From positions 2,230,001-2,294,000 of the forward strand of contig NZ_CP150254.1 of the NCBI RefSeq assembly GCF_037975445.1: a DNA stretch of 64,000 bases, given 5' to 3'. The position numbers were made by a program, and so were the translations under genes. Position 1 is the first letter of the stretch. Each line of letters begins with the position of its first letter. The notes under the pieces are model-generated. The model was not told the origin of the DNA. It was given only the letters and a program-made list of their open reading frames with translations, and did not search any database. The DNA is from Peribacillus sp. FSL P2-0133 (lineage in GTDB: Bacteria > Bacillota > Bacilli > Bacillales > DSM-1321). Shown piece by piece: positions 47,515 through 57,827 of the stretch.

Positions 47515-49002
47515 ATGTCTGAAAAAATGAATAAAGTGACAGATTTACGTTCTGCCTTGGAACTACTGAAGTCCATACCAGGACAATTGATTGAAACGGA
47601 TGAACCTGTCAATCCTCATGCTGAATTATCTGGGGTTTATCGTCATGTCGGTGCTGGCGGAACAGTAATGCGTCCAACAAAAATCGGACCTGCCATGGTT
47701 TTCAATCATGTATTGGGACATGAAGATTCAAGCGTGGTGATTGGACTTTTAGCCAGCCGGGAAAGAGTCGGTCTCATGCTGGATACAAAACCGGAGCGAC
47801 TGGGGTTCCTTTTAAATGAAGCTGTAAAAAACCCAATTGATCCAATCACCATTACAAATGATAAAGCGAAAGCTCAAGAAGTGGTTCACTATGCGGAAGA
47901 TCCGGATTTCGATATCAGAAAGTTAATACCTGCCCCTACGAATACAGAGGAAGATGCAGGCCCGTATATCACCATAGGCATGTGCTATGCCTCCGATTCG
48001 GAAACGGGTGAATCTGATATAACGATACATCGTTTATGTTTACAAAGTAAAGATGAGATGTCCATGTATTTTGTTCCTGGCCGCCATTTAGAAGTTTTTC
48101 GTGAAAAGGCTGAAAAAGCAGGAAAACCATTACCAATTTCCATTAGTATCGGTGTTGACCCTGCTATTGAAGTCGCTGCTTGTTTTGAAGCACCTACGAC
48201 TCCTCTTGGCTTTAATGAGTTGAGTGTTGCAGGGGCTATCAGGAAAGAAGCGGTAGAACTGGTCCAATGCTTGACTATTGATGAAAAAGCTATCGCGAAT
48301 GCTGAATATGTAATAGAAGGGGAATTGGTTCCCGGAGTGCGTGTTCGGGAAGATCAACACACCAATACTGGAAAAGCAATGCCAGAATTCCCTGGTTATA
48401 CAGGCTCAGCTGTAGCGGAACTGCCTCTAATCAAAGTGAAAGCTGTTACGCACCGTGTCAATCCAATCATGCAAACAGTTATTGGTCCAAGTGAAGAACA
48501 TGTGAATATGGCTGGCATTCCAACTGAAGCAAGCATTCTGCAAATGGTGGAAAAGGCCATGCCAGGCAAATTATTGAACGTTTATGCCCATACTTCAGGA
48601 GGGGGTAAATACATGGCCGTTCTTCAATTCAAGAAAAGTCAGCCAAGTGATGAAGGTCGCCAAAGACAAGCTGCACTATTGGCGTTCTCTGCCTTTTCTG
48701 AACTTAAGCATGTGTTCATAGTGGATGAAGATGTGGATCCCTTTGATAGTAATGATGTTTTATGGGCGTTAAATACTCGTTACCAAGGTGATGTTGATAC
48801 TGTATTCATTCCTGGAGTGCGCTGTCACCCGTTAGATCCTTCACAAGATCCCGCATACAGCCCCACCATTCAGGAAAAGGGGATTTCCTGTAAGACCATT
48901 TTTGACTGTACAGTACCGTTTCATTTAAAAGATGAATTTAAAAGGTCTGAATTTAAAGAGGTAGATCCAAGTCGATTTGTGCCTGGATTCTCCAATGTAT
49001 AA
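47515..49002 (+). CDS. ubiD: UbiD-family aromatic acid decarboxylase
   Basis: A 495-residue decarboxylase that needs prenylated FMN. The prFMN-site region is seen in TIHRLCLQSKDEMSMYF near residue 164, PGRHLEVFREKAEKAG, and the acidic segment FNELSVAGAIRKE near residue 235. Family members remove CO2 from hydroxybenzoates, protocatechuate, vanillate or phenacrylates. The partner ubiX follows. With catechol dioxygenase and muconate cycloisomerase in the same island, a dihydroxybenzoate (for example protocatechuate) to catechol reaction is the best guess. Confidence 0.88.
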   Translation: MSEKMNKVTDLRSALELLKSIPGQLIETDEPVNPHAELSGVYRHVGAGGTVMRPTKIGPAMVFNHVLGHEDSSVVIGLLASRERVGLMLDTKPERLGFLLNEAVKNPIDPITITNDKAKAQEVVHYAEDPDFDIRKLIPAPTNTEEDAGPYITIGMCYASDSETGESDITIHRLCLQSKDEMSMYFVPGRHLEVFREKAEKAGKPLPISISIGVDPAIEVAACFEAPTTPLGFNELSVAGAIRKEAVELVQCLTIDEKAIANAEYVIEGELVPGVRVREDQHTNTGKAMPEFPGYTGSAVAELPLIKVKAVTHRVNPIMQTVIGPSEEHVNMAGIPTEASILQMVEKAMPGKLLNVYAHTSGGGKYMAVLQFKKSQPSDEGRQRQAALLAFSAFSELKHVFIVDEDVDPFDSNDVLWALNTRYQGDVDTVFIPGVRCHPLDPSQDPAYSPTIQEKGISCKTIFDCTVPFHLKDEFKRSEFKEVDPSRFVPGFSNV

Positions 49003-49057
49003 GTTCTCTATATTTTTAAGTTTCGATTCAATGACTAATGAATAAGGAGGGGAATTA

Positions 49058-49633
49058 ATGAAAATCATTGTTGGGATAACAGGAGCGACTGGAGCCATTT
49101 TCGGAATTAGGATTCTTCAGATGCTTAAAAGCAGTGAAGTGGAGACCCATTTAATCATGTCCCCTTGGGCACATGCCACCATTCAACATGAAACTTCATA
49201 TTCTGTTAAAGACGTGGAGGGATTAGCTGATCATTCCTATTCTTACAAAGATCAAGCAGCAAGAATATCAAGTGGATCTTTCCGGGTTGATGGCATGATC
49301 GTAGCACCTTGCAGTATGAAAACACTAGCTTCCATTCGCATGGGACTAGCGGATAATTTATTAACGCGATCTGCTGATGTCATGTTGAAAGAAAGAAAAA
49401 AATTATTACTAATGACAAGAGAAACCCCTCTAAATACGATTCATTTGGAGAATATGATGGAGCTTTCTAAAATGGGGACTATTATATTCCCTCCGATGCC
49501 AGCCTTCTATAATAATCCTGAAAATGTTAACGATATCATTGATCATCTTGCATATAGGGCGTTAGATCAATTTGAAATCGATGCTCACGGTGCGAAACGG
49601 TGGGACGGAATGAAATATCGCACCAAAATATAA
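49058..49633 (+). CDS. ubiX: UbiX-family flavin prenyltransferase
   Basis: A 191-residue Rossmann-like protein. The FMN-binding start is VGITGATGAIFGIRILQ; APCSMKTLASIRMGLADNLL, TRSADVMLKE and RETPLNTIHLENM are family motifs. It attaches a dimethylallyl group to FMN to make the cofactor of UbiD decarboxylases, matching the gene directly upstream (55-nt gap). AAGGAGGGG precedes the ATG. Confidence 0.92.
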   Translation: MKIIVGITGATGAIFGIRILQMLKSSEVETHLIMSPWAHATIQHETSYSVKDVEGLADHSYSYKDQAARISSGSFRVDGMIVAPCSMKTLASIRMGLADNLLTRSADVMLKERKKLLLMTRETPLNTIHLENMMELSKMGTIIFPPMPAFYNNPENVNDIIDHLAYRALDQFEIDAHGAKRWDGMKYRTKI

Positions 49634-49668
49634 CAGATTACTAGTGAATTAAGGAAAAAGGTGAAAAA

Positions 49669-50130
49669 ATGAATGGGATGGAAATGCCAGTAGAGGTATT
49701 CGACTTGTTAAATGGTAAAGAACTTGTCGACAAGCAGCATGAAGCCATGATGCTGTTGACGGTAAGTGAAGAAGGATGGCCACATACTGCAATGATTAGC
49801 GTGGGTGAGATCGTAGCAATAAGCAGGAAGGAATTAAGGATTGGCTTATGGCCGGATACTTCGACTACAGCCAATGTCAATCGTACCCATAAAGCTACAC
49901 TGGTTTTGTTTTGGAAAGGTAAAGCCCAATATTTTCGCCTTTCATTAGAGAGATTAAAAGAGCTGCAAAATGTCCGATACAAAAGAGAAAGATTCCAGGC
50001 CAAAATAGTAGAGGCACGGGAGGATATTGCTAAGTATGCTGAAATAACCTCTGGAATTAAAATCGACTTGAAAAACCCTAAAGAAATTGTTGAACGATGG
50101 AGGGAGACCATAGAAGATATCCTTCAATAA
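49669..50130 (+). CDS. pyridoxamine-phosphate-oxidase-like FMN split-barrel protein
   Basis: A 153-residue protein with the split-barrel pattern (MMLLTVSEEGWPHTAMISVG, LRIGLWPDTSTTANVNRTHK). Such proteins bind FMN or F420-like cofactors or act as small flavin reductases or chaperones. It is 35 nt behind ubiX, where Bacillus decarboxylase operons often carry the small third subunit BsdD, which is absent here. It may help supply or protect reduced FMN for UbiX/UbiD. Confidence 0.75.
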   Translation: MNGMEMPVEVFDLLNGKELVDKQHEAMMLLTVSEEGWPHTAMISVGEIVAISRKELRIGLWPDTSTTANVNRTHKATLVLFWKGKAQYFRLSLERLKELQNVRYKRERFQAKIVEAREDIAKYAEITSGIKIDLKNPKEIVERWRETIEDILQ

Positions 50131-50235
50131 ATTTCCAGGTACCGACTTTAAGTTACTAAGAAATCAAAATTATCAAATTATAATTGATAAAATTAGAACT
50201 TCATGTAAAATGGAATCATTACATGTATTTATACC

Positions 50236-50352
50236 TTGCCTATTCATTAATCATTAAAAAAAGGCCTTTTTTAATGAAAATTAATGAACTGACTGGCTAT
50301 CTTAATTTCTCGATCAAGTTACCTTGATGGTGAAGTTAAGATAGCTTTTTTT
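50236..50352 (+). ncRNA. structured 5' leader A with terminator (candidate cis-regulatory RNA)
   Basis: The conserved block TTGCCTATTCATTA (50236-50249) overlaps stem P1 TTCATTAAT (50243-50251) / ATTAATGAA (50280-50288). P1 encloses P2 CATTAAAAAA (50252-50261) / TTTTTTAATG (50267-50276). Then follows P3 GCTATCTTAA (50296-50305) / TTAAGATAGC (50336-50345) with an inner hairpin ATCAAG / CTTGAT and seven T: an intrinsic terminator 55 nt before the hydrolase start. A promoter-like TTGATA-N16-TAAAAT lies upstream, overlapping a TTATCAA-N7-TTGATAA dyad. The same layout recurs at 51324. Confidence 0.6.
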
Positions 50353-50407
50353 ATTAAATATGTAGGCTGGGTTATGTTTTTAATCAAGGAAATGGAGGAG
50401 TGTTACT

Positions 50408-51241
50408 ATGGAAATGTATGTAAAGGAATTGGGGGAACATAGAATCCAAATTGCTGATTATCCTGGAACGAAAGGGCCAATCATCGCCATACATGGTTTA
50501 ACGGGCAATCATAAGCAAATGCATTATTATGCAGAAATGTTAAAAGGCGAGTACAGAGTCATTTCGATTGACTTGAGAGGGAGGGGAAATAGTTCGAGGG
50601 CAGATGTGCAGTCTTCTCTTTTTAAACATGCAGAAGATGTAATTGAGTTAATTCAAGAGTTAAAGATTAAAAATCCTATTTTGATCGGGTATTCAATGGG
50701 AGCCTTCATCTCAAGTGTTGTAGCCAGCAAATTAACTTCGGTACAGGCCCTGATATTATTGGATGGTGCGGCCATTTCCTCTCAACAACAAAGGGACATC
50801 GTACAACCATCTCTAGGCCGATTAAGTAAAGAATATGAATCTCAGGAAAGTTATATTGCAGAAATTAAGGAAATCTATAGCCGTTTGGGTATCAATTGGA
50901 CAGAACACCTGCAAAGTGTGGCGGAGTATGAGGTTCATGAAGTGGATGGTCACTGGGAGAATAAATCATCAGAAGATAGCATTCTTACAGATTTCAATAG
51001 TTTTTATTCTTTTGTCCCTAAAGAAGTTTGTAGACAAATTTCCTGTAAAACCTTATTGGTTTATGCCAGTGGGAAAATAGGGGATTTTCCTCCATTATTT
51101 TATGAAGAAGCCTATGATGATACGAAGAAATATACACCTGATATTGAAACGATCGTTTCAACTTGTAACCACTATACAATGGTGTTTGAAAATAGGGCGG
51201 AGATTAACAAAGAGATAAAGTCGTTCTTAAAACGAATTTGA
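50408..51241 (+). CDS. alpha/beta hydrolase (possible enol-lactone hydrolase)
   Basis: A 277-residue alpha/beta-fold hydrolase. The oxyanion motif is AIHGLTGN near residue 27, RGRGNS near residue 59 supports the PcaD/MhpC-type group, the nucleophile elbow is IGYSMGAF near residue 98, the aspartate region is in the second half, and the histidine is in STCNHYTMVF near residue 257. It sits inside the catechol/beta-ketoadipate island behind leader A, and no dedicated 3-oxoadipate enol-lactonase is present, so that step is a reasonable candidate. Specificity cannot be read from sequence. Confidence 0.75.
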   Translation: MEMYVKELGEHRIQIADYPGTKGPIIAIHGLTGNHKQMHYYAEMLKGEYRVISIDLRGRGNSSRADVQSSLFKHAEDVIELIQELKIKNPILIGYSMGAFISSVVASKLTSVQALILLDGAAISSQQQRDIVQPSLGRLSKEYESQESYIAEIKEIYSRLGINWTEHLQSVAEYEVHEVDGHWENKSSEDSILTDFNSFYSFVPKEVCRQISCKTLLVYASGKIGDFPPLFYEEAYDDTKKYTPDIETIVSTCNHYTMVFENRAEINKEIKSFLKRI

Positions 51242-51323
51242 TTTTTTTGAAGATATTTTTTAAAAAAGTATTGAAATTATCAGAAAATGGTGTAATATTA
51301 AGAATATATAATAAACTTAATTA

Positions 51324-51438
51324 TTGCCTATTCATTAGCTATTAAAAAACAACCTTTTTTAATAACAACTAGTGAACAACTGGCTACCTTAAACACCTGC
51401 TGTCAATTATTGATAGTAATGTTTAGGGTAGCCATTTT
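51324..51438 (+). ncRNA. structured 5' leader B with terminator (second copy of leader type A)
   Basis: TTGCCTATTCATTA recurs exactly at 51324-51337. P1 is TTCATTAG (51331-51338) / CTAGTGAA (51369-51376), P2 is TATTAAAAAA (51340-51349) / TTTTTTAATA (51355-51364), and P3 is GGCTACCTTAAAC (51382-51394) / GTTTAGGGTAGCC (51421-51433) followed by ATTTTT. Compared with leader A, the stems change on both sides (C-G to T-A in P2, T-A to C-G in P3), which supports real base pairing. It ends 45 nt before the next gene. Confidence 0.6.
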
Positions 51439-51482
51439 TGTCGTGATAATGTAAAAGCTTAATGAATTTGGGGGTTTTATCG

Positions 51483-52169
51483 TTGAAAATCATTGATTTA
51501 ACATTGGAACTTTACGATGGTCTAGTTACGAATAATGATTTACCTGCAATAGGGATTAAAGATGAACCTCTTGAACATAAGGGGAAATATGATTCACTTC
51601 CTAAAGGCTACCGTTCCAAGTTGATTTCTTTTTCTGACCATAGTGGGACACATGTTGATGTGGCTTCACATTACTCAGAAAATGGGGATTCGGTTGAAAC
51701 CATCAATCTGAAGAATATGTTTGGGGATGCCCTCATACTGGATGTAAGCATGTTAAAAGCGACACATGAACCTGTTACGAAAGATTTACTTGAAGAGGCC
51801 GAACGCAGGCAGGGAGTATATGTTGAAAAAGACGATATCGTCCTGATCAGGACATGGGGGAAATCATGGGGGGAAAAAGGCTTTTTTGAAGCGCAGGCAT
51901 TAGATGAAAGTGTGGCTCAATGGTTAATTGAAAAGCAAATACATATTGTCGGGTTGGATTTGCCAAATGCGGATTTGAACCAAGATTCAGAAAGCGGAAT
52001 TCATCAAAAATTACTGAACCATGATATATATATCGTTGAAAATCTAGTGAATCTTGAAAAACTGCCTAAGCATTCCCGCTTTCTTTTTTTCGGGATCCCT
52101 TTAAAACTAAAAAATGCAACAGCCTCACCTATAAGGGCACTATCGATACTTGATTCACAATTAATTTAA
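51483..52169 (+). CDS. cyclase-family metal hydrolase (kynurenine-formamidase-like)
   Basis: A 228-residue protein of the cyclase/isatin-hydrolase/kynurenine-formamidase family, defined by the metal motif SDHSGTHVDVASHY near residue 50. IIDLTLELYDG at the start is also typical. Members open amide or lactone rings or hydrolyse N-formylkynurenine. TTG 51483 has GGGGG eight bases upstream; an ATG at 51462 lacks a site. It is the first gene after leader B and heads an unbroken run to the CoA-transferase, so it could hydrolyse a lactone or ring intermediate of this route. Confidence 0.82.
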   Translation: MKIIDLTLELYDGLVTNNDLPAIGIKDEPLEHKGKYDSLPKGYRSKLISFSDHSGTHVDVASHYSENGDSVETINLKNMFGDALILDVSMLKATHEPVTKDLLEEAERRQGVYVEKDDIVLIRTWGKSWGEKGFFEAQALDESVAQWLIEKQIHIVGLDLPNADLNQDSESGIHQKLLNHDIYIVENLVNLEKLPKHSRFLFFGIPLKLKNATASPIRALSILDSQLI

Positions 52170-52183
52170 AGAGGTGCAGACGA

Positions 52184-52903
52184 ATGAGCGAGGGATTATT
52201 GTATTTCAAAGAAGTTTATGATGTGGTACCAGGCTGGGTGCAAAAAATGCACGATTATAGCCCCAATGCACTTGATCACTATACCAACTTACGAAGTAAC
52301 ATCATGCAAGAGGGAGCCTTGACGAAGAAGGAAAAAGATATATTACTGGTAGGCATGAATGCTGCGAGGTTGTATGAACGGAGTATGGTTTACCATACCA
52401 AAGGGGCAATCGATGGCGGGGCAACAATACCGGAACTGGTGGAATACTTAATTGTTTCTTACTTATATAACGGAACAGAAGCATTAAAAACAGGAATGAA
52501 GTCTTTGGAGTATGCTCTAACACTTAAAGGCATTCGATATCCCGAAATAAGTGGCGATCAAGGAACAGCAGAAGAAATCCTGCTTTATATGATTGAACTA
52601 TTAGGGGATGAGGAGACGGGATTCGTCTCGAATGTTTTGAAACTGGTTAAATCGGAAGACCAAAACTCCCTCAAAGATTATATATTAAGTGATTCAGTGG
52701 TTTCAAAAAGTCTAAAACATCTCCTGATGACAGGCATATTCATTACAGAATTAAAAGGGGAACAGGTTGGGGAATGGATGGAGGCGGCAAGGTTAAATGG
52801 AGCTTCGGAAGAACAATTAGCTGAAGTGGGACTGATTTGCTTATTGACTGCTGGAATACCTGCTTGGTTTGAGGCAAGTGATTCATTGATTGAAAATAAG
52901 TAA
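52184..52903 (+). CDS. carboxymuconolactone-decarboxylase (AhpD/CMD) family protein
   Basis: A 239-residue all-helical protein with two CMD-like modules (residues ~25-115 and ~135-230). The first has LTKKEKDILLVGMNAARLYER and GGATIPELVEYL; the redox CxxC of AhpD is absent, so a peroxidase role is unlikely. PcaC-type members decarboxylate carboxymuconolactone. Location between the cyclase and CoA-transferase genes suggests action on a lactone intermediate of aromatic breakdown. Confidence 0.75.
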   Translation: MSEGLLYFKEVYDVVPGWVQKMHDYSPNALDHYTNLRSNIMQEGALTKKEKDILLVGMNAARLYERSMVYHTKGAIDGGATIPELVEYLIVSYLYNGTEALKTGMKSLEYALTLKGIRYPEISGDQGTAEEILLYMIELLGDEETGFVSNVLKLVKSEDQNSLKDYILSDSVVSKSLKHLLMTGIFITELKGEQVGEWMEAARLNGASEEQLAEVGLICLLTAGIPAWFEASDSLIENK

Positions 52904-52924
52904 CGTGAGATTGGTGGGGAAAAC

Positions 52925-53614
52925 ATGGCAAAAGTACATCAAGATATAGAAGCAGCTTTATCTTGTGTGAAGAACGGTCATACATTAATGGTAGGTGGAT
53001 TTGGCTTGATCGGTGCCCCTCTTACATTAATAGATGGTTTGGCCAAAAAGGATGTAGCAGGCTTGACAGTAATCAGTAACAATTTAGGCGAGAAAGGAAA
53101 AGGTCTGGGAGTTCTCCTAAGCCAGAAGAAAATAAAAAAGGCGATTGGTTCTTATTTTACAAGCAATCGTGAAATTGGGGAGTTTTACCAACGTGGTGAA
53201 ATTGAATTAGAACTATTGCCACAGGGGACATTAGCGGAATCCATTCGTGCTGGCGGTGCTGGCATAGGCGGTTACTATACGAAAACGAGTGTAGGGACCG
53301 ATTTAGCTAAAGGAAAAGAAGAAAGGGAAATAAATGGGGCTACATATATTTTTGAACCTGCCATAAGAGCAAATGTAGCTTTGATCAGGGCATGGAAGGC
53401 AGATACACTCGGTAATCTTGTTTATTATAAAACGGCTCGAAACTTTAATCCGGTAATGGCAACAGCCGCAGATGTCGTAATTGCTGAAGTGGATGAGATA
53501 GTTGAACCTGGAGAACTCCCGCCAGAGGAGATTGTAACACCGCATCTATTCGTCGATGGAATTATTAAGGCAAAGAAAATCCTGACGAAGGAAGGTGTCA
53601 AAGGTTATGAGTGA
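52925..53614 (+). CDS. 3-oxoacid (3-oxoadipate) CoA-transferase subunit A
   Basis: A 229-residue alpha subunit of a family I CoA-transferase. The glycine-rich start GHTLMVGGFGLIGAPLTLI and the oxyanion-side segment EIELELLPQGTLAESIRAGGAG, split over residues ~95-115, are characteristic. It transfers CoA from succinyl-CoA to 3-oxoadipate or acetoacetate together with subunit B. The thiolase and catechol-dioxygenase genes nearby make 3-oxoadipate (PcaI-type) the likelier substrate. Its end overlaps the next gene by 8 nt. Confidence 0.88.
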   Translation: MAKVHQDIEAALSCVKNGHTLMVGGFGLIGAPLTLIDGLAKKDVAGLTVISNNLGEKGKGLGVLLSQKKIKKAIGSYFTSNREIGEFYQRGEIELELLPQGTLAESIRAGGAGIGGYYTKTSVGTDLAKGKEEREINGATYIFEPAIRANVALIRAWKADTLGNLVYYKTARNFNPVMATAADVVIAEVDEIVEPGELPPEEIVTPHLFVDGIIKAKKILTKEGVKGYE

Positions 53615-54239
53615 CAAAGAATTAATGCAAAATATGATAGCAAGACGCGCGGCAAAAGAATTGACGGGCCCTTGTATAGTGAACCTTGGAATTGGGATTC
53701 CGACCTTGGTTGCAAAATACATTGATGATGAAAATGTTTTTTTCCATACGGAAAATGGATTATTAGGGGTTGCAGAAGTTGATGAAGATGAAATCGATCC
53801 CAATTTAGTTAATGCAGGTAAGTTACCGGTAGGGGAATCGATTGGTGCATCATTCTTTAATAGTGCAGAATCGTTTGCAATGATCCGTGGAGGACACATT
53901 GATGTTGCCATCTTGGGTGTTTTGCAGGTAGGTCAAACCGGGGAAATTGCAAATTGGGCCGTACCTGGCAAGAATATCATGGGTGTTGGAGGAGCGATGG
54001 ACCTGTTGGTTGGTGCCAAAAAAGTGATCGTGACAATGACACATACAAGTAAGGAAGGTAAAAGTAAAGTTTTAAATGAATGCACCTACCCGATTACTTC
54101 CACTAGAAGCGTTGACTTGATCATCACCGAGTTGGCTGTCTTTGAAGTTATTGACAAACAGTTGAAATTGATTGAATTAATGCCGGGTATAACGATCGAA
54201 GAAGTAAGAGCAAAAACAGAAGCGGATTTTATCTATTAA
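53607..54239 (+). CDS. 3-oxoacid (3-oxoadipate) CoA-transferase subunit B
   Basis: The 210-residue beta subunit. The catalytic glutamate lies in FFHTENGLLGVAE near residue 49, where it forms the CoA thioester, and GGHIDVAILGVLQVG follows. ATG 53607 is chosen with GAAGGTG nine bases upstream, giving an 8-nt overlap with subunit A. It completes the PcaIJ/ScoAB-type enzyme that activates 3-oxoadipate for thiolysis. Confidence 0.9.
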   Translation: MSDKELMQNMIARRAAKELTGPCIVNLGIGIPTLVAKYIDDENVFFHTENGLLGVAEVDEDEIDPNLVNAGKLPVGESIGASFFNSAESFAMIRGGHIDVAILGVLQVGQTGEIANWAVPGKNIMGVGGAMDLLVGAKKVIVTMTHTSKEGKSKVLNECTYPITSTRSVDLIITELAVFEVIDKQLKLIELMPGITIEEVRAKTEADFIY

Positions 54240-54259
54240 ATGTTAAAAAGGTGGTTTAA

Positions 54260-55375
54260 ATGAAAATACGTTCAGTAGATGTATACATTATTGATTTACC
54301 CACAATTCGTCCTCATCAGCTTGCCATGCATACGATCGTGGAACAAACGATCATTCTTGCCCGTGTCATGGATGAAGAGGGTGCGGAAGGTTGGGCGGAA
54401 GTGGCGACAATAGGCGGGGCTTCATATGGTGAGGGGACACCTGAGGCGATCAAAGTGAATATTGATACATATATCACCCCGCTTATCATTGGTAAAAACC
54501 CCGTCCATTATGACAAAATCATGCATGAAGTTTCACTAAATGTTAGAGGAAATAATTTTGCGAAGGCTGTCGTTGAATCAGCCATGGTGGATTTAGTAGC
54601 CAGAAGGAGAAACATTCCTGCATATGAATTATTCGGTGGACAAATTCATAAATCATTGCCGGTGGCATGGACTTTGGCAAGTGGGGATACGAGTAAAGAT
54701 ATCGAAGAAGCGAAAGAATCTTTACACCAAAAACGTCATAATATCTTTAAATTGAAAATTGGCAAAGGTAATCCATATAAGAATGTGGAGCATGTATTGA
54801 AAATTATTGAAGCCGTGGGAGATCAAGCACGCATTACGGTTGATGTTAATCAAGCATGGGATGAAACAACGGCTACGTATTGCATTGAAGCTTTACAGGA
54901 AGGCGGGGTTTCCATGGTCGAACAGCCGCTGCCAGCTTGGGATAATGAAGGGATGGCAAGGTTGACCGAACGTTTTAAGGTCCCGATCATGGCCGATGAA
55001 TCATTGAATTCATTACAAGATTCATTCCAAATAGCTAAACATAGGGCAGGTAATTCCTTCGCCTTGAAAATATGTAAACATGGCGGGATGACCCAAACGA
55101 AAAAGGTGGCTGCGATTGCCGAAGGTGTAGGCTTTGGTTTGTATGGCGGAACGATGATTGAATCATCATTGGGAACGGCCATTTGTGCACAACTTTATTC
55201 AACCATTCCAAAATTTGAATTCGGTACAGAATTATTTGGACCGTTACTTTTCAAAGAAAATATTACGCTAAACCAAATAAAATATGAGAATTATGAAATA
55301 ATCATCCCGGATGGTCCAGGATTTGGCATGGAGATAGATATGGAAAAAGTAAAACATTTTTCAAGAGGTCTTTAA
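54260..55375 (+). CDS. catB: muconate cycloisomerase (enolase superfamily)
   Basis: A 371-residue enzyme of the muconate-lactonizing subgroup. Catalytic lysine pair KLKIGKG near residue 166, metal ligands D in TVDVNQAWD, E in MVEQPLPAWD and D in IMADESLNS, and the second lysine in ALKICKHGGM near residue 272. It converts cis,cis-muconate to muconolactone. Compared with the racemase at 26026 it has the CatB-like QAWDE signature. Neighbouring catechol dioxygenase, CoA-transferase and thiolase support the assignment. Confidence 0.87.
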   Translation: MKIRSVDVYIIDLPTIRPHQLAMHTIVEQTIILARVMDEEGAEGWAEVATIGGASYGEGTPEAIKVNIDTYITPLIIGKNPVHYDKIMHEVSLNVRGNNFAKAVVESAMVDLVARRRNIPAYELFGGQIHKSLPVAWTLASGDTSKDIEEAKESLHQKRHNIFKLKIGKGNPYKNVEHVLKIIEAVGDQARITVDVNQAWDETTATYCIEALQEGGVSMVEQPLPAWDNEGMARLTERFKVPIMADESLNSLQDSFQIAKHRAGNSFALKICKHGGMTQTKKVAAIAEGVGFGLYGGTMIESSLGTAICAQLYSTIPKFEFGTELFGPLLFKENITLNQIKYENYEIIIPDGPGFGMEIDMEKVKHFSRGL

Positions 55376-55450
55376 TTAATATAAACTGGAAAGGGGATTA
55401 AGAAACACCCACTGGTTTATGCAAGTAATCTTGAGAGGATGTAGTTTTAT

Positions 55451-55789
55451 ATGGGACAGCCAACATTATTAATCACGGCCTATGCGAAGGCACCGCAAAA
55501 TACGAGCATGTATGAAAATTATAAATACGCTGGGATGGTACTGGAAATTCACAAGGAAAGTCACATAATCATTAATGCAGAATTTACGTTTTTAACAACT
55601 TTGGCCCAGGATTTTTTTAAGCGAATGATAGTAGGTTTTGATTTTAGTAAAGATATCGATTCCTTAATAGAGAATATTAAAACGGACTTTTTAGCTCCAT
55701 CGCAGCAGTCGGTGATTGTTGCCCTGAAAATAGCTCACCAAAGATATAAGGATAGTTTAGAAGAAAGAAATAAAAATAGCAGGAGGTAG
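55451..55789 (+). CDS. DUF3870 domain protein (candidate muconolactone isomerase)
   Basis: A 112-residue protein of the DUF3870 family, function unknown (ITAYAKAPQNTSMYENYKY, then ILNAEFTFLTTLAQDFF-like core). It is nearly the size of muconolactone isomerase (CatC, ~96 residues), which is missing from the island. It sits between muconate cycloisomerase and the thiolase, 4 nt before the latter. I propose it performs or assists this isomerisation; this rests on context only. Confidence 0.7.
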   Translation: MGQPTLLITAYAKAPQNTSMYENYKYAGMVLEIHKESHIIINAEFTFLTTLAQDFFKRMIVGFDFSKDIDSLIENIKTDFLAPSQQSVIVALKIAHQRYKDSLEERNKNSRR

Positions 55790-55793
55790 AAAA

Positions 55794-56987
55794 TTGAGCA
55801 ATGTAGTTATTATAGACTCGGTTCGCACCGCTATAGGGAAATTAGGGGGAGCATTGGAAAATGTTCCTGCCGATTTCCTGGCAGCTGCTGTCCTTGATGA
55901 AGTGATCAAGAGAGCGGATATTCCTAAAGAGAGTATTGATGAAGTGATAATGGGACAAGCCAAACAAAGTTCAGATGCGTCAAATTTGGCAAGAGTTGCA
56001 TCGCTCCGGGCAGGATTTCCTGTGGAAGTACCAGGTTATACCGTACACAGACAATGCGGATCCGGCATCCAGGCAATCAATTCTGCCAGTCAACAAATAC
56101 AATGCGGATTTGGGGATGTAATCATTGCAGGCGGAGCGGAATCAATGAGCACGGCCCCATACTATATGAGAAATATCCGTTTTGGATTGAAATCAGGGAA
56201 TGGACAGTTATTGGACCCGAATACGGAAAGCCAGCCAGGTTCACAGCCCGTTGAAGATTACGGGATGTTAACGATGGGAATGACAGCAGAAAATCTGGCT
56301 GAAAAATATTCCATTTCAAGGACTGAACAAGATGAATTTGCTTTAAGGAGCCAAGAAAATGCAAAACGGGCAATTTCTACTGAACTATTTTCGAAAGAGA
56401 TCGTTCCCTATCAAGTTAAAACGAAAAAAGGGTTAATGGAATTTAATGTGGATGAGCACCCAAGAGAAACCAGTCTGGAAAAGTTGGCTAATTTAAAACC
56501 GGTTTTCAAGAAAAATGGAACGGTAACCGCTGGAAATAGTAGTGGAAGAAATGATGGTGCATCCGCTCTGATACTAATGTCGGAAGAAGCAGCAAAAAGT
56601 AGTGGTAAAAAGCCGAAGGCAAGAATGATCGCTCAAGCTGCAGCAGGCGTATCTCCGAATTACATGGGGCTGGGACCTGTCAACTCTACCTTGAAAGCGC
56701 TTCAAATGTCAGGGCTGAAACTGAATGATATTGATTTAATAGAGCTGAACGAAGCCTTTTCTGCACAAGCTTTGGCAGTAATCAAAGAATTGAAGCTTGA
56801 TATGAATAAGGTGAATCCTAATGGCGGTGCCATTGCCATGGGACATCCAATTGGTGCCACTGGTGCAATTTTAGCAACCAAATTGATGCATGAGTTAGAA
56901 AGAACCGGAAAAAGATATGGGCTAATCACACTATGTATAGCAGGTGGATTAGGAATCAGTACCATCATTGAAAATCAACAAATATAA
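55794..56987 (+). CDS. pcaF: thiolase (probable 3-oxoadipyl-CoA thiolase)
   Basis: A 397-residue thiolase. The nucleophilic cysteine is in TVHRQCGSGIQAINSA near residue 88, the histidine in NPNGGAIAMGHPIGATGA near residue 350 and the second cysteine in LCIAGGLGISTI near residue 382. It cleaves beta-ketoacyl-CoA; within this island the logical substrate is 3-oxoadipyl-CoA, giving succinyl-CoA and acetyl-CoA, though acetoacetyl-CoA thiolase cannot be excluded. TTG start behind GCAGGAGGT. Confidence 0.87.
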   Translation: MSNVVIIDSVRTAIGKLGGALENVPADFLAAAVLDEVIKRADIPKESIDEVIMGQAKQSSDASNLARVASLRAGFPVEVPGYTVHRQCGSGIQAINSASQQIQCGFGDVIIAGGAESMSTAPYYMRNIRFGLKSGNGQLLDPNTESQPGSQPVEDYGMLTMGMTAENLAEKYSISRTEQDEFALRSQENAKRAISTELFSKEIVPYQVKTKKGLMEFNVDEHPRETSLEKLANLKPVFKKNGTVTAGNSSGRNDGASALILMSEEAAKSSGKKPKARMIAQAAAGVSPNYMGLGPVNSTLKALQMSGLKLNDIDLIELNEAFSAQALAVIKELKLDMNKVNPNGGAIAMGHPIGATGAILATKLMHELERTGKRYGLITLCIAGGLGISTIIENQQI

Positions 56988-57014
56988 AAACTTAAAAAAA
57001 TTGGAGGAAATATA

Positions 57015-57827
57015 ATGAAGAATCAAAAAGTAATCGACGTTTATAATGGATTGGTAGTTAAATTCAAGGAATTAGTTAGTGAATACGAAATTGATCATAA
57101 TGACTATCAAGCTCTTGTGGATTGGATGGATCAATTAGGCAGGGCAGGGGAAATTCCGTTATTTATGGATGTATTCTTTGAAACTCATGCTCTTCAAGAA
57201 ATGTATAAAAGTGTAAAAGGAACTGAACCTACTATTCTAGGACCTTATTACATTGAAAATACGCCAGTCGTTCAAAATCCTGGTGTGCTGCCACACCGTG
57301 AAAATGAACCAGGTGACGCCCTATTCTTTTCAGGATCAGTGAAAGATGTTAATGGAAATCCGTTGGCAAATACTAAAATCGATATGTGGCAGGCTGATAC
57401 AAATGGTGAATATTCATATTTCGCTGACGGGATCCCAGATGATAATTTACGTGGTGTTTTTTATACGGATGCGAATGGTAATTTTGAAATTAAAACAGTT
57501 GTACCGGGTAATTATTCAATTCCAACAGATGGGCCTTCTGGTCAGTTCTTAAAGTGGATTGATCATCATGCATTTCGTCCAGCACATTTGCATCTATTGT
57601 TCCAACCGGAAAATGGCGATAGATTAGTAACACAAATATATTTTGAAGGCGATAAATATTTAGAAAATGATGTTGCACAAGGTGTTCGTGGAAGCTTAAT
57701 TACGAAGTTAGATAAACATTCCGGTGCAGAAAAAGGTTTGAAAAATGATTATTATACGGCTCATTTAGATTTTGAACTTAGATTACAAGATAAACCAGTT
57801 TTCAATAAAGCTGTCGTGAAAAACTAA
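57015..57827 (+). CDS. catA: intradiol ring-cleavage dioxygenase (catechol 1,2-dioxygenase)
   Basis: A 270-residue non-haem iron(III) dioxygenase. Iron ligands are the tyrosines in TILGPYYIEN near residue 78 and VVPGNYSIPTDGP near residue 166, and the histidines in HAFRPAHLHLLF near residue 190. A helical N-terminal dimer domain marks the catechol/hydroxyquinol branch, not protocatechuate 3,4-dioxygenase. It opens catechol to cis,cis-muconate, the substrate of the cycloisomerase in the same operon. Hydroxyquinol is the alternative substrate. Confidence 0.88.
   Translation: MKNQKVIDVYNGLVVKFKELVSEYEIDHNDYQALVDWMDQLGRAGEIPLFMDVFFETHALQEMYKSVKGTEPTILGPYYIENTPVVQNPGVLPHRENEPGDALFFSGSVKDVNGNPLANTKIDMWQADTNGEYSYFADGIPDDNLRGVFYTDANGNFEIKTVVPGNYSIPTDGPSGQFLKWIDHHAFRPAHLHLLFQPENGDRLVTQIYFEGDKYLENDVAQGVRGSLITKLDKHSGAEKGLKNDYYTAHLDFELRLQDKPVFNKAVVKN

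Follow-up and report, generated by a model that had tools for sequence, protein, structure and literature searches.

In the window, the whole stretch of 64,000 nucleotides of Peribacillus sp. FSL P2-0133 DNA that was analyzed, an alpha/beta hydrolase gene and a cyclase operon are each preceded by a structured leader, and the two leaders match. The first-pass annotation took this pair for a candidate new cis-regulatory RNA. The question is whether the leaders represent a conserved family of regulatory RNAs and, if so, how such an RNA would act on transcription and what it would respond to. To our knowledge, the regulation of aromatic catabolism is understood almost entirely through DNA-binding proteins.

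The 14-base block TTGCCTATTCATTA had been described as common to both leaders. The 64-kb window has exact copies at positions 50236 and 51324 only; with up to three mismatches allowed, it matched 25 times in the window versus 14.8 expected. Folding reproduced the proposed architecture for both leaders: a P1 stem around an A/U-rich P2, a linker, and a long terminator stem (P3) with an inner hairpin, followed by a T-run. The minimum free energies were −41.5 kcal/mol for leader 1 (z of −8.2) and −42.8 kcal/mol for leader 2 (z of −8.8), and 0 of 200 shuffles folded as well in either case. A simple terminator scan flagged neither stem because it allowed only loops of 3 to 8 bases, while both loops hold a second hairpin. 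The observation of two matching structured leaders is confirmed, with corrections of detail. The first leader lies where it had been placed, and the second ends one base later than given, at 51439 rather than 51438. Comparing homologous columns of leader 1 and leader 2, the paired changes described for P2 (C-G versus T-A) and P3 (T-A versus C-G) held, while the P1 change is from A-T to G-C rather than from T-A to G-C. The CTGGCTA motif had been read as linker; its GGCTA part is the first part of the terminator 5′ arm. The leaders had been placed 45 to 55 bases ahead of start codons. We measured 55 bases to the ATG of the hydrolase gene and 43 bases to the likely TTG start of the cyclase gene, which has GGGGG upstream and agrees with the annotated start in a plasmid homologue.

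The genes around the leaders bear out their assignment to an aromatic-degradation island, which spans positions 47515 to 57827 of the window in a host genome of 5.81 Mb (one contig). It encodes UbiD- and UbiX-type decarboxylase subunits, a PNPOx-like protein, the alpha/beta hydrolase, the cyclase-family protein, a CMD-family protein, CoA-transferase A and B, muconate cycloisomerase, a DUF3870 protein, a thiolase, and a catechol dioxygenase-type protein. The muconate cycloisomerase matched TIGR02534 above its cut-off. The hydrolase scored under the PcaD cut-off, the CMD protein under that of PcaC, the thiolase under that of PcaF, and the dioxygenase-type protein under the cut-offs of catechol dioxygenases. 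Pathway names such as 3-oxoadipate enol-lactonase are therefore putative, read from the whole cluster.

Features of the two leaders and their surroundings (window positions, forward-strand numbering)
Feature	Position	Strand	Evidence or remark
Promoter-like TTGATA-16-TAAAAT ahead of leader 1	50184..50211	+	10/12 consensus matches; consensus match only
Leader element 1	50236..50352	+	117 nt; precedes alpha/beta hydrolase gene; 126.6 bits to model R1
P0 5′ strand of leader 1, invariant GCC	50238..50240	+	Invariance in 35/35 distinct copies; P0 probability
P1 of leader 1	5′ arm 50243..50250, 3′ arm 50281-50288	+	Alignment/covariation
P2 hairpin of leader 1	50252..50276, arms 50252-50261 and 50267-50276	+	Alignment/covariation
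Leader 1 GGC common to P0 and terminator base	50295..50297	+	Pairing probabilities, energies, conservation
Leader 1 intrinsic terminator	50295..50352, arms 50295-50308 and 50333-50346, then T-run	+	Fold, covariation, energies
Alpha/beta hydrolase gene, 3-oxoadipate enol-lactonase-like (putative name, from cluster)	50408..51241	+	TIGR02427 49.2 bits, under cut-off 255.85
Promoter-like TTGAAA-16-TAATAT ahead of leader 2	51271..51298	+	9/12 consensus matches; consensus match only
Leader element 2	51324..51439	+	116 nt; precedes cyclase operon; 127.6 bits to model R1
P0 5′ strand of leader 2, invariant GCC	51326..51328	+	P0 probability
P1 of leader 2 enclosing P2	51331..51376; P1 arms 51331-51338 and 51369-51376; P2 51340-51349 and 51355-51364	+	Alignment/covariation
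Leader 2 GGC common to P0 and terminator base	51382..51384	+	Pairing probabilities, energies, conservation
Leader 2 intrinsic terminator	51382..51439, arms 51382-51395 and 51420-51433, then T-run	+	Fold, covariation, energies
cre-like site after terminator 2	51450..51463	+	3 mismatches to consensus here; 1-2 in several homologues
Cyclase-family gene, likely TTG start	51483..52169	+	First of run cyclase-CMD-CoA transferase A/B-muconate cycloisomerase-DUF3870-thiolase-catechol dioxygenase type (to 57827)

We searched related genomes with covariance models. Model R1 was built from an alignment of eight copies (alignment A3), five rows of which contain N spacers, and a hand-written structure. The only forward copies that it found in the genome of the window were the two leaders, and the next best match scored 18.6 bits, aside from antisense readings of both leaders, which we rejected as palindromic stems read from the opposite side. 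Within the family (43 genomes), R1 matched 11 at an E value of 0.1; we accepted ten and rejected one (G006, 27.6 bits). Across the order, 9 of 397 genomes were matched at an E value of 0.01, with eight accepted and G214 (33.2 bits) rejected. A sequence pattern drawn from known copies gave 14 matches in the same eight order genomes, and its reversed form gave none in the 397. R2 matched 4 of 24 genomes in the family of G390 (with G250, 34.5 bits, rejected), one of two in the family of G049, and one of 16 in that of G393. The weak matches in G006, G214, and G250 resemble other AT-rich hairpins or terminators, and pathway genes were not recognized nearby. Plasmids of Peribacillus sp. R9-11, Priestia megaterium NCT-2, and P. 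aryabhattai carry both leaders ahead of the same two genes; beyond these three, leader searches of plasmids and phages returned short partial matches only, and the sequence pattern had no match in viral contigs. The working set comprises 36 copies, 35 of them distinct, from 16 genomes and 3 plasmids, and leaves out a truncated G390 copy and the three weak hits. In the class-wide search with R2, run under stricter filters, the one match among 398 genomes was the window's own. Since this wider search found the element only there, the family is rare, and its distribution is patchy.

The stems covary across these copies. In A3, which was aligned before any model was made, the paired cells, the double-changed cells, and the covariation score each beat 500 of 500 shuffles. 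The number of pairs with double changes was equaled by 12 of 500 shuffles, and further pair types were not above the shuffles (431 of 500 as high). We then fitted 30 copies (29 distinct) to the model structure as alignment A5, which leans toward the model for that reason. Here, 98.8% of 928 cells were paired over 32 pairs, 16 of them changed on both sides; none of 500 shuffles reached any of the five measures, nor did any alignment with the register slid, the best of which was 56.8% paired. This is the conserved, covarying structure of a cis-regulatory attenuator RNA. The A5 cells include 70 G-U pairs versus 6 A-C pairs. A DNA palindrome would treat both alike, so this excess shows selection on the sense-strand RNA. 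Among unpaired positions, U6 is kept in 28 of 29 rows, R7 in all 29, and A60 in 27, with others lower apart from two C's in the P2 loop. Unpaired positions are only moderately conserved, less than in most metabolite riboswitch aptamers, while the helix sequences are unusually constant, with 6 of 10 P2 pairs invariant. The P2 loop ends in CC in nearly all aligned copies (28 and 29 of 29 for the two bases), and this CC could engage the two G's of the GGC at the terminator base in a tertiary contact.

The element is distinct from known RNA families. As the first-pass annotation had stated, the leaders match no known riboswitch or T-box: no Rfam 15 family had a match in the window at its gathering threshold. 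In a permissive search, the two leaders and nine related loci gave sub-threshold matches only, and two weak hits at related loci fall outside the element. The TGGNACC motif of T-boxes is absent from both leaders, and there was no Rfam T-box match. T-box, 23S-methyl, and other Rfam families were rejected, with none at the cut-off. The best-scoring Rfam match was the 23S-methyl RNA motif (RF01065), which also has a long hairpin followed by a terminator stem and aligned end to end. However, it scored 26.9 bits against a gathering cut-off of 50, in leader 2 only. Its usual genes are rRNA methyltransferases, which differ from the genes here. The leaders resemble transcription-attenuating ON riboswitches in general, sharing an upstream domain set against an intrinsic terminator, functionally linked genes, and covarying stems, but they have no known ligand, and their competition runs through three shared nucleotides. 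Within the open-access literature, we found no paper on such an RNA. The parts of two surveys of new bacterial RNAs that bear on this (PMC11109978 and PMC8632094) describe no motif ahead of such genes; odc1 comes closest, a motif that precedes putative CoA-transferases belonging to a different Pfam family (pfam02515). Taken together, the leaders are members of a genuine and conserved family of cis-regulatory, attenuator-type RNAs that is absent from Rfam 15, and the earlier interpretation is supported.

The copies stand ahead of genes of one pathway. Of the 36 copies, 16 are followed by the hydrolase gene, 12 by the cyclase gene, 3 by CMD, 2 by CoA-transferase A, and 2 by an MFS transporter gene; 1 has no readable gene after it. 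The following gene is thus of beta-ketoadipate type in 35 of 36; the last, the second L058 copy, reaches a contig edge without a readable gene. Such a location before functionally related genes in several lineages is typical of riboswitches, and further copies with covarying stems ahead of same-pathway genes are what the first-pass annotation had predicted. Spacing from element to gene ran from 11 to 344 bases in 21 copies, mostly measured to longest open reading frames; the shortest becomes about 20 bases with an ATG after a ribosome site, and the L058 hydrolase start lies farther from its element than the value measured for it in this list. That the spacing varies, from about 20 to 344 bases, argues against masking of the ribosome site. 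Hydrolases at least 63% identical occur in 8 of 397 genomes, and the element is present at that locus in seven (truncated in one) and absent in G200. In the other 15 genomes, with hydrolases of up to 57% identity, no element matched at those loci at an E value of 0.01.

Several loci stand out individually. G200 (L111) has the orthologous pathway as one operon near a XylR/PucR-type regulator, with neither the RNA nor DUF3870. The G390 hydrolase leader (L056:5365-5494, also L075) keeps the P1 3′ arm and the terminator, and the 5′ half of its aptamer is replaced by unrelated sequence that includes a promoter-like stretch, as if the switch had been lost naturally. Three MFS proteins, from G012, G035, and G037, are 73 to 79% alike, and their best-scoring subfamily is the aromatic acid/H+ symporters, under its cut-off; two of the three have the element ahead of their genes. 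One of these copies (L061, G035 contig 68) is the third of its genome and lies on another contig than the main island, before the aromatic-acid symporter-type MFS gene, a regulon-like spread. DUF3870, a family treated in PMC4387736, is present in complete RNA-bearing operons and absent beside the CoA-transferase-thiolase copies. The window's member (positions 55451-55789) is a strongly conserved protein of 112 amino acids for which a PDB sequence search gave no significant match (best E value of 0.47).

The first-pass annotation left the 5′ TTGCC unpaired and missed a further pairing. We found that the GCC at positions 3 to 5 can pair with the GGC that opens the terminator to give a helix, P0, and that neither strand varies in any of the 35 distinct copies. 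They stay the same even where the terminator after the GGC differs (GGCTATCTT, GGCTGTCTT, and GGCCTTTTAA) and although, in 7 of 29 rows, the first G faces U instead of C in the terminator. For transcripts ending 0, 4, or 8 bases past the GGC, the folding model gave a P0 probability of 0.78 to 1.00 in 35 of 35 sequences. Random AT-rich 7-base tails (20 per sequence) served as a control and gave a mean of 0.15, with 2.7% reaching 0.78. In full-length elements, the P0 probability fell to 0.004 or less. Forcing P0 cost 4.5 to 10.9 kcal/mol, and the terminator state was favored in 24 of 24 copies folded. Such a predicted cost could be paid by a bound ligand or protein. By the energy model and by invariance, then, the terminator and the competing helix are mutually exclusive. 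P0 cannot be tested by covariation because its three pairs never vary, and the case for it is made by invariance and predicted energy. P0 keeps the inner stem of the terminator intact and lifts its base 3 bp off the U-tract, which, from general knowledge of intrinsic terminators, would be expected to halt termination. A leader peptide of at least six residues with a Shine-Dalgarno-like site was found in none of 21 of the 22 copies checked, and the single hit begins inside the terminator loop; we therefore rejected a leader-peptide attenuator.

We propose that the element is a transcription-attenuation ON switch in which P0-P1-P2 competes with the terminator, and that a pathway intermediate, 3-oxoadipate first among the candidates, is likely sensed directly by the RNA; we judge this reading as a whole just probable. 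The nascent leader would fold first as P0-P1-P2, with the 5′-near GCC paired to the GGC just 3′ of P1. Once made, the terminator 3′ arm would compete for the same GGC. With no signal, the terminator should win, because it is the more stable state, and transcription would halt before the gene. A signal would stabilize P0-P1-P2, probably by binding where an asymmetric internal loop separates P0 from P1 (UR opposite NNRACY). The stabilized domain would hold the GGC and detach the terminator stem from the U-tract, and transcription would continue. The ON logic, the direct sensing, and the identity of the ligand are what we infer here.

An aromatic intermediate had been suggested as the signal. This needs adjusting, since the gene associations point to 3-oxoadipate, which is not aromatic. 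In G337 and G785, the element stands ahead of CoA-transferase and thiolase only, and muconate cycloisomerase is absent from both (E value of 1e-40) and present in the other 8 of 10 genomes tested. The metabolite shared by these settings would then be 3-oxoadipate or its CoA ester, which makes it the candidate ligand. Because the names of most pathway enzymes come from their family or cluster only, 3-oxoadipate is a candidate at this stage. The most specific form of the proposal is a new class of riboswitch: the RNA itself would sense 3-oxoadipate (beta-ketoadipate) and, via a 3-bp P0 antiterminator, turn on the lower pathway of aromatic degradation in relatives of Bacillus. We offer this as a tentative idea that we hold to be less probable than its opposite.

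The same terminator/antiterminator switch could instead be worked by an RNA-binding antiterminator protein that responds to a pathway metabolite and binds P0-P1-P2, a possible but rather unlikely alternative. The P2 helix is conserved in sequence beyond what pairing needs, and the unpaired positions are only moderately conserved; together with the rarity of the RNA and the operon in G200 that does without it, this keeps a protein partner in play. The genome also has one ANTAR-domain match (G000:C1:5133709-5133870, in a frame of 197 amino acids), far from the island, and DUF3870 accompanies the RNA in complete operons. However, no single type of regulator recurs beside the copies among those neighboring frames that were scanned: we saw MerR (window, R9-11, and G393), XylR/PucR types (G390, G791, and the Priestia plasmids), LysR (G049), a sigma-54 activator (G037), and LacI (G337), and none among the scanned neighbors of G012, G785, or the lone G035 copy. 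The known protein-bound leaders were set apart by their general definitions only. ANTAR targets are also leader RNAs that control terminators in catabolic operons, but they have two hairpins with hexanucleotide loops, whereas we see one stacked hairpin whose loop is mostly 5 bases. The RAT antiterminators of SacY/LicT (BglG) type likewise consist of a hairpin that has an asymmetric internal loop and overlaps the 5′ arm of the terminator. They are about 30 bases long with conserved loops of their own, as opposed to 62 bases of different sequence here with an overlap of 3 bases, and no PRD domain was found among the neighbors scanned with Pfam.

The ON switch could also be read in reverse: P0-P1-P2 would prevail in vivo unless a signal or product tipped the balance toward the terminator. 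P0 does form first in the nascent RNA in the folding model, but once the leader is complete, the terminator has by far the greater stability, and the norm for catabolic genes is induction by their substrate, not shutdown; we consider an OFF switch improbable.

A little less credible still is a plain constitutive attenuator or mRNA stabilizer that lowers expression, with regulation left to the promoter and to CcpA at cre sites. The promoter-like hexamers end 24 and 25 bases 5′ of the two elements, in a scan whose matches overall were no more frequent than in shuffles. Sites with up to two mismatches to the cre consensus lie within 40 bases after 8 of 32 distinct elements versus 0.13 expected from mononucleotide shuffles. 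A plain terminator, however, needs neither covariation in P1 and P2 nor a distant, invariant upstream GCC. The cre-like sites after those elements suggest that catabolite repression by CcpA is layered on the leader switch at the same place.

Operator palindromes acting as DNA, which the inverted repeats of the P1 and P2 arms might suggest, are very improbable and were rejected on the G-U excess, and all working-set copies point toward their gene and end in a terminator. It is equally remote that the element is a mobile repeat or that it diverged from an RNA family already known: despite the sub-threshold end-to-end alignment of leader 2, the 23S-methyl motif matched neither leader 1 (E values up to 10) nor the nine related loci (E values up to 0.5), and random scatter was not seen, the genome holding just two copies, each ahead of a pathway gene, so that a mobile repeat was rejected.

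What the preferred reading, the ON switch that senses a pathway intermediate, offers now is an orphan RNA with a list of candidate ligands short enough for direct testing. If it is true, an RNA sensor for an intermediate of the beta-ketoadipate pathway would be, as far as we know, the first of its kind, and it could provide a biosensor for the catabolism of lignin and plastic monomers in Gram-positive hosts.
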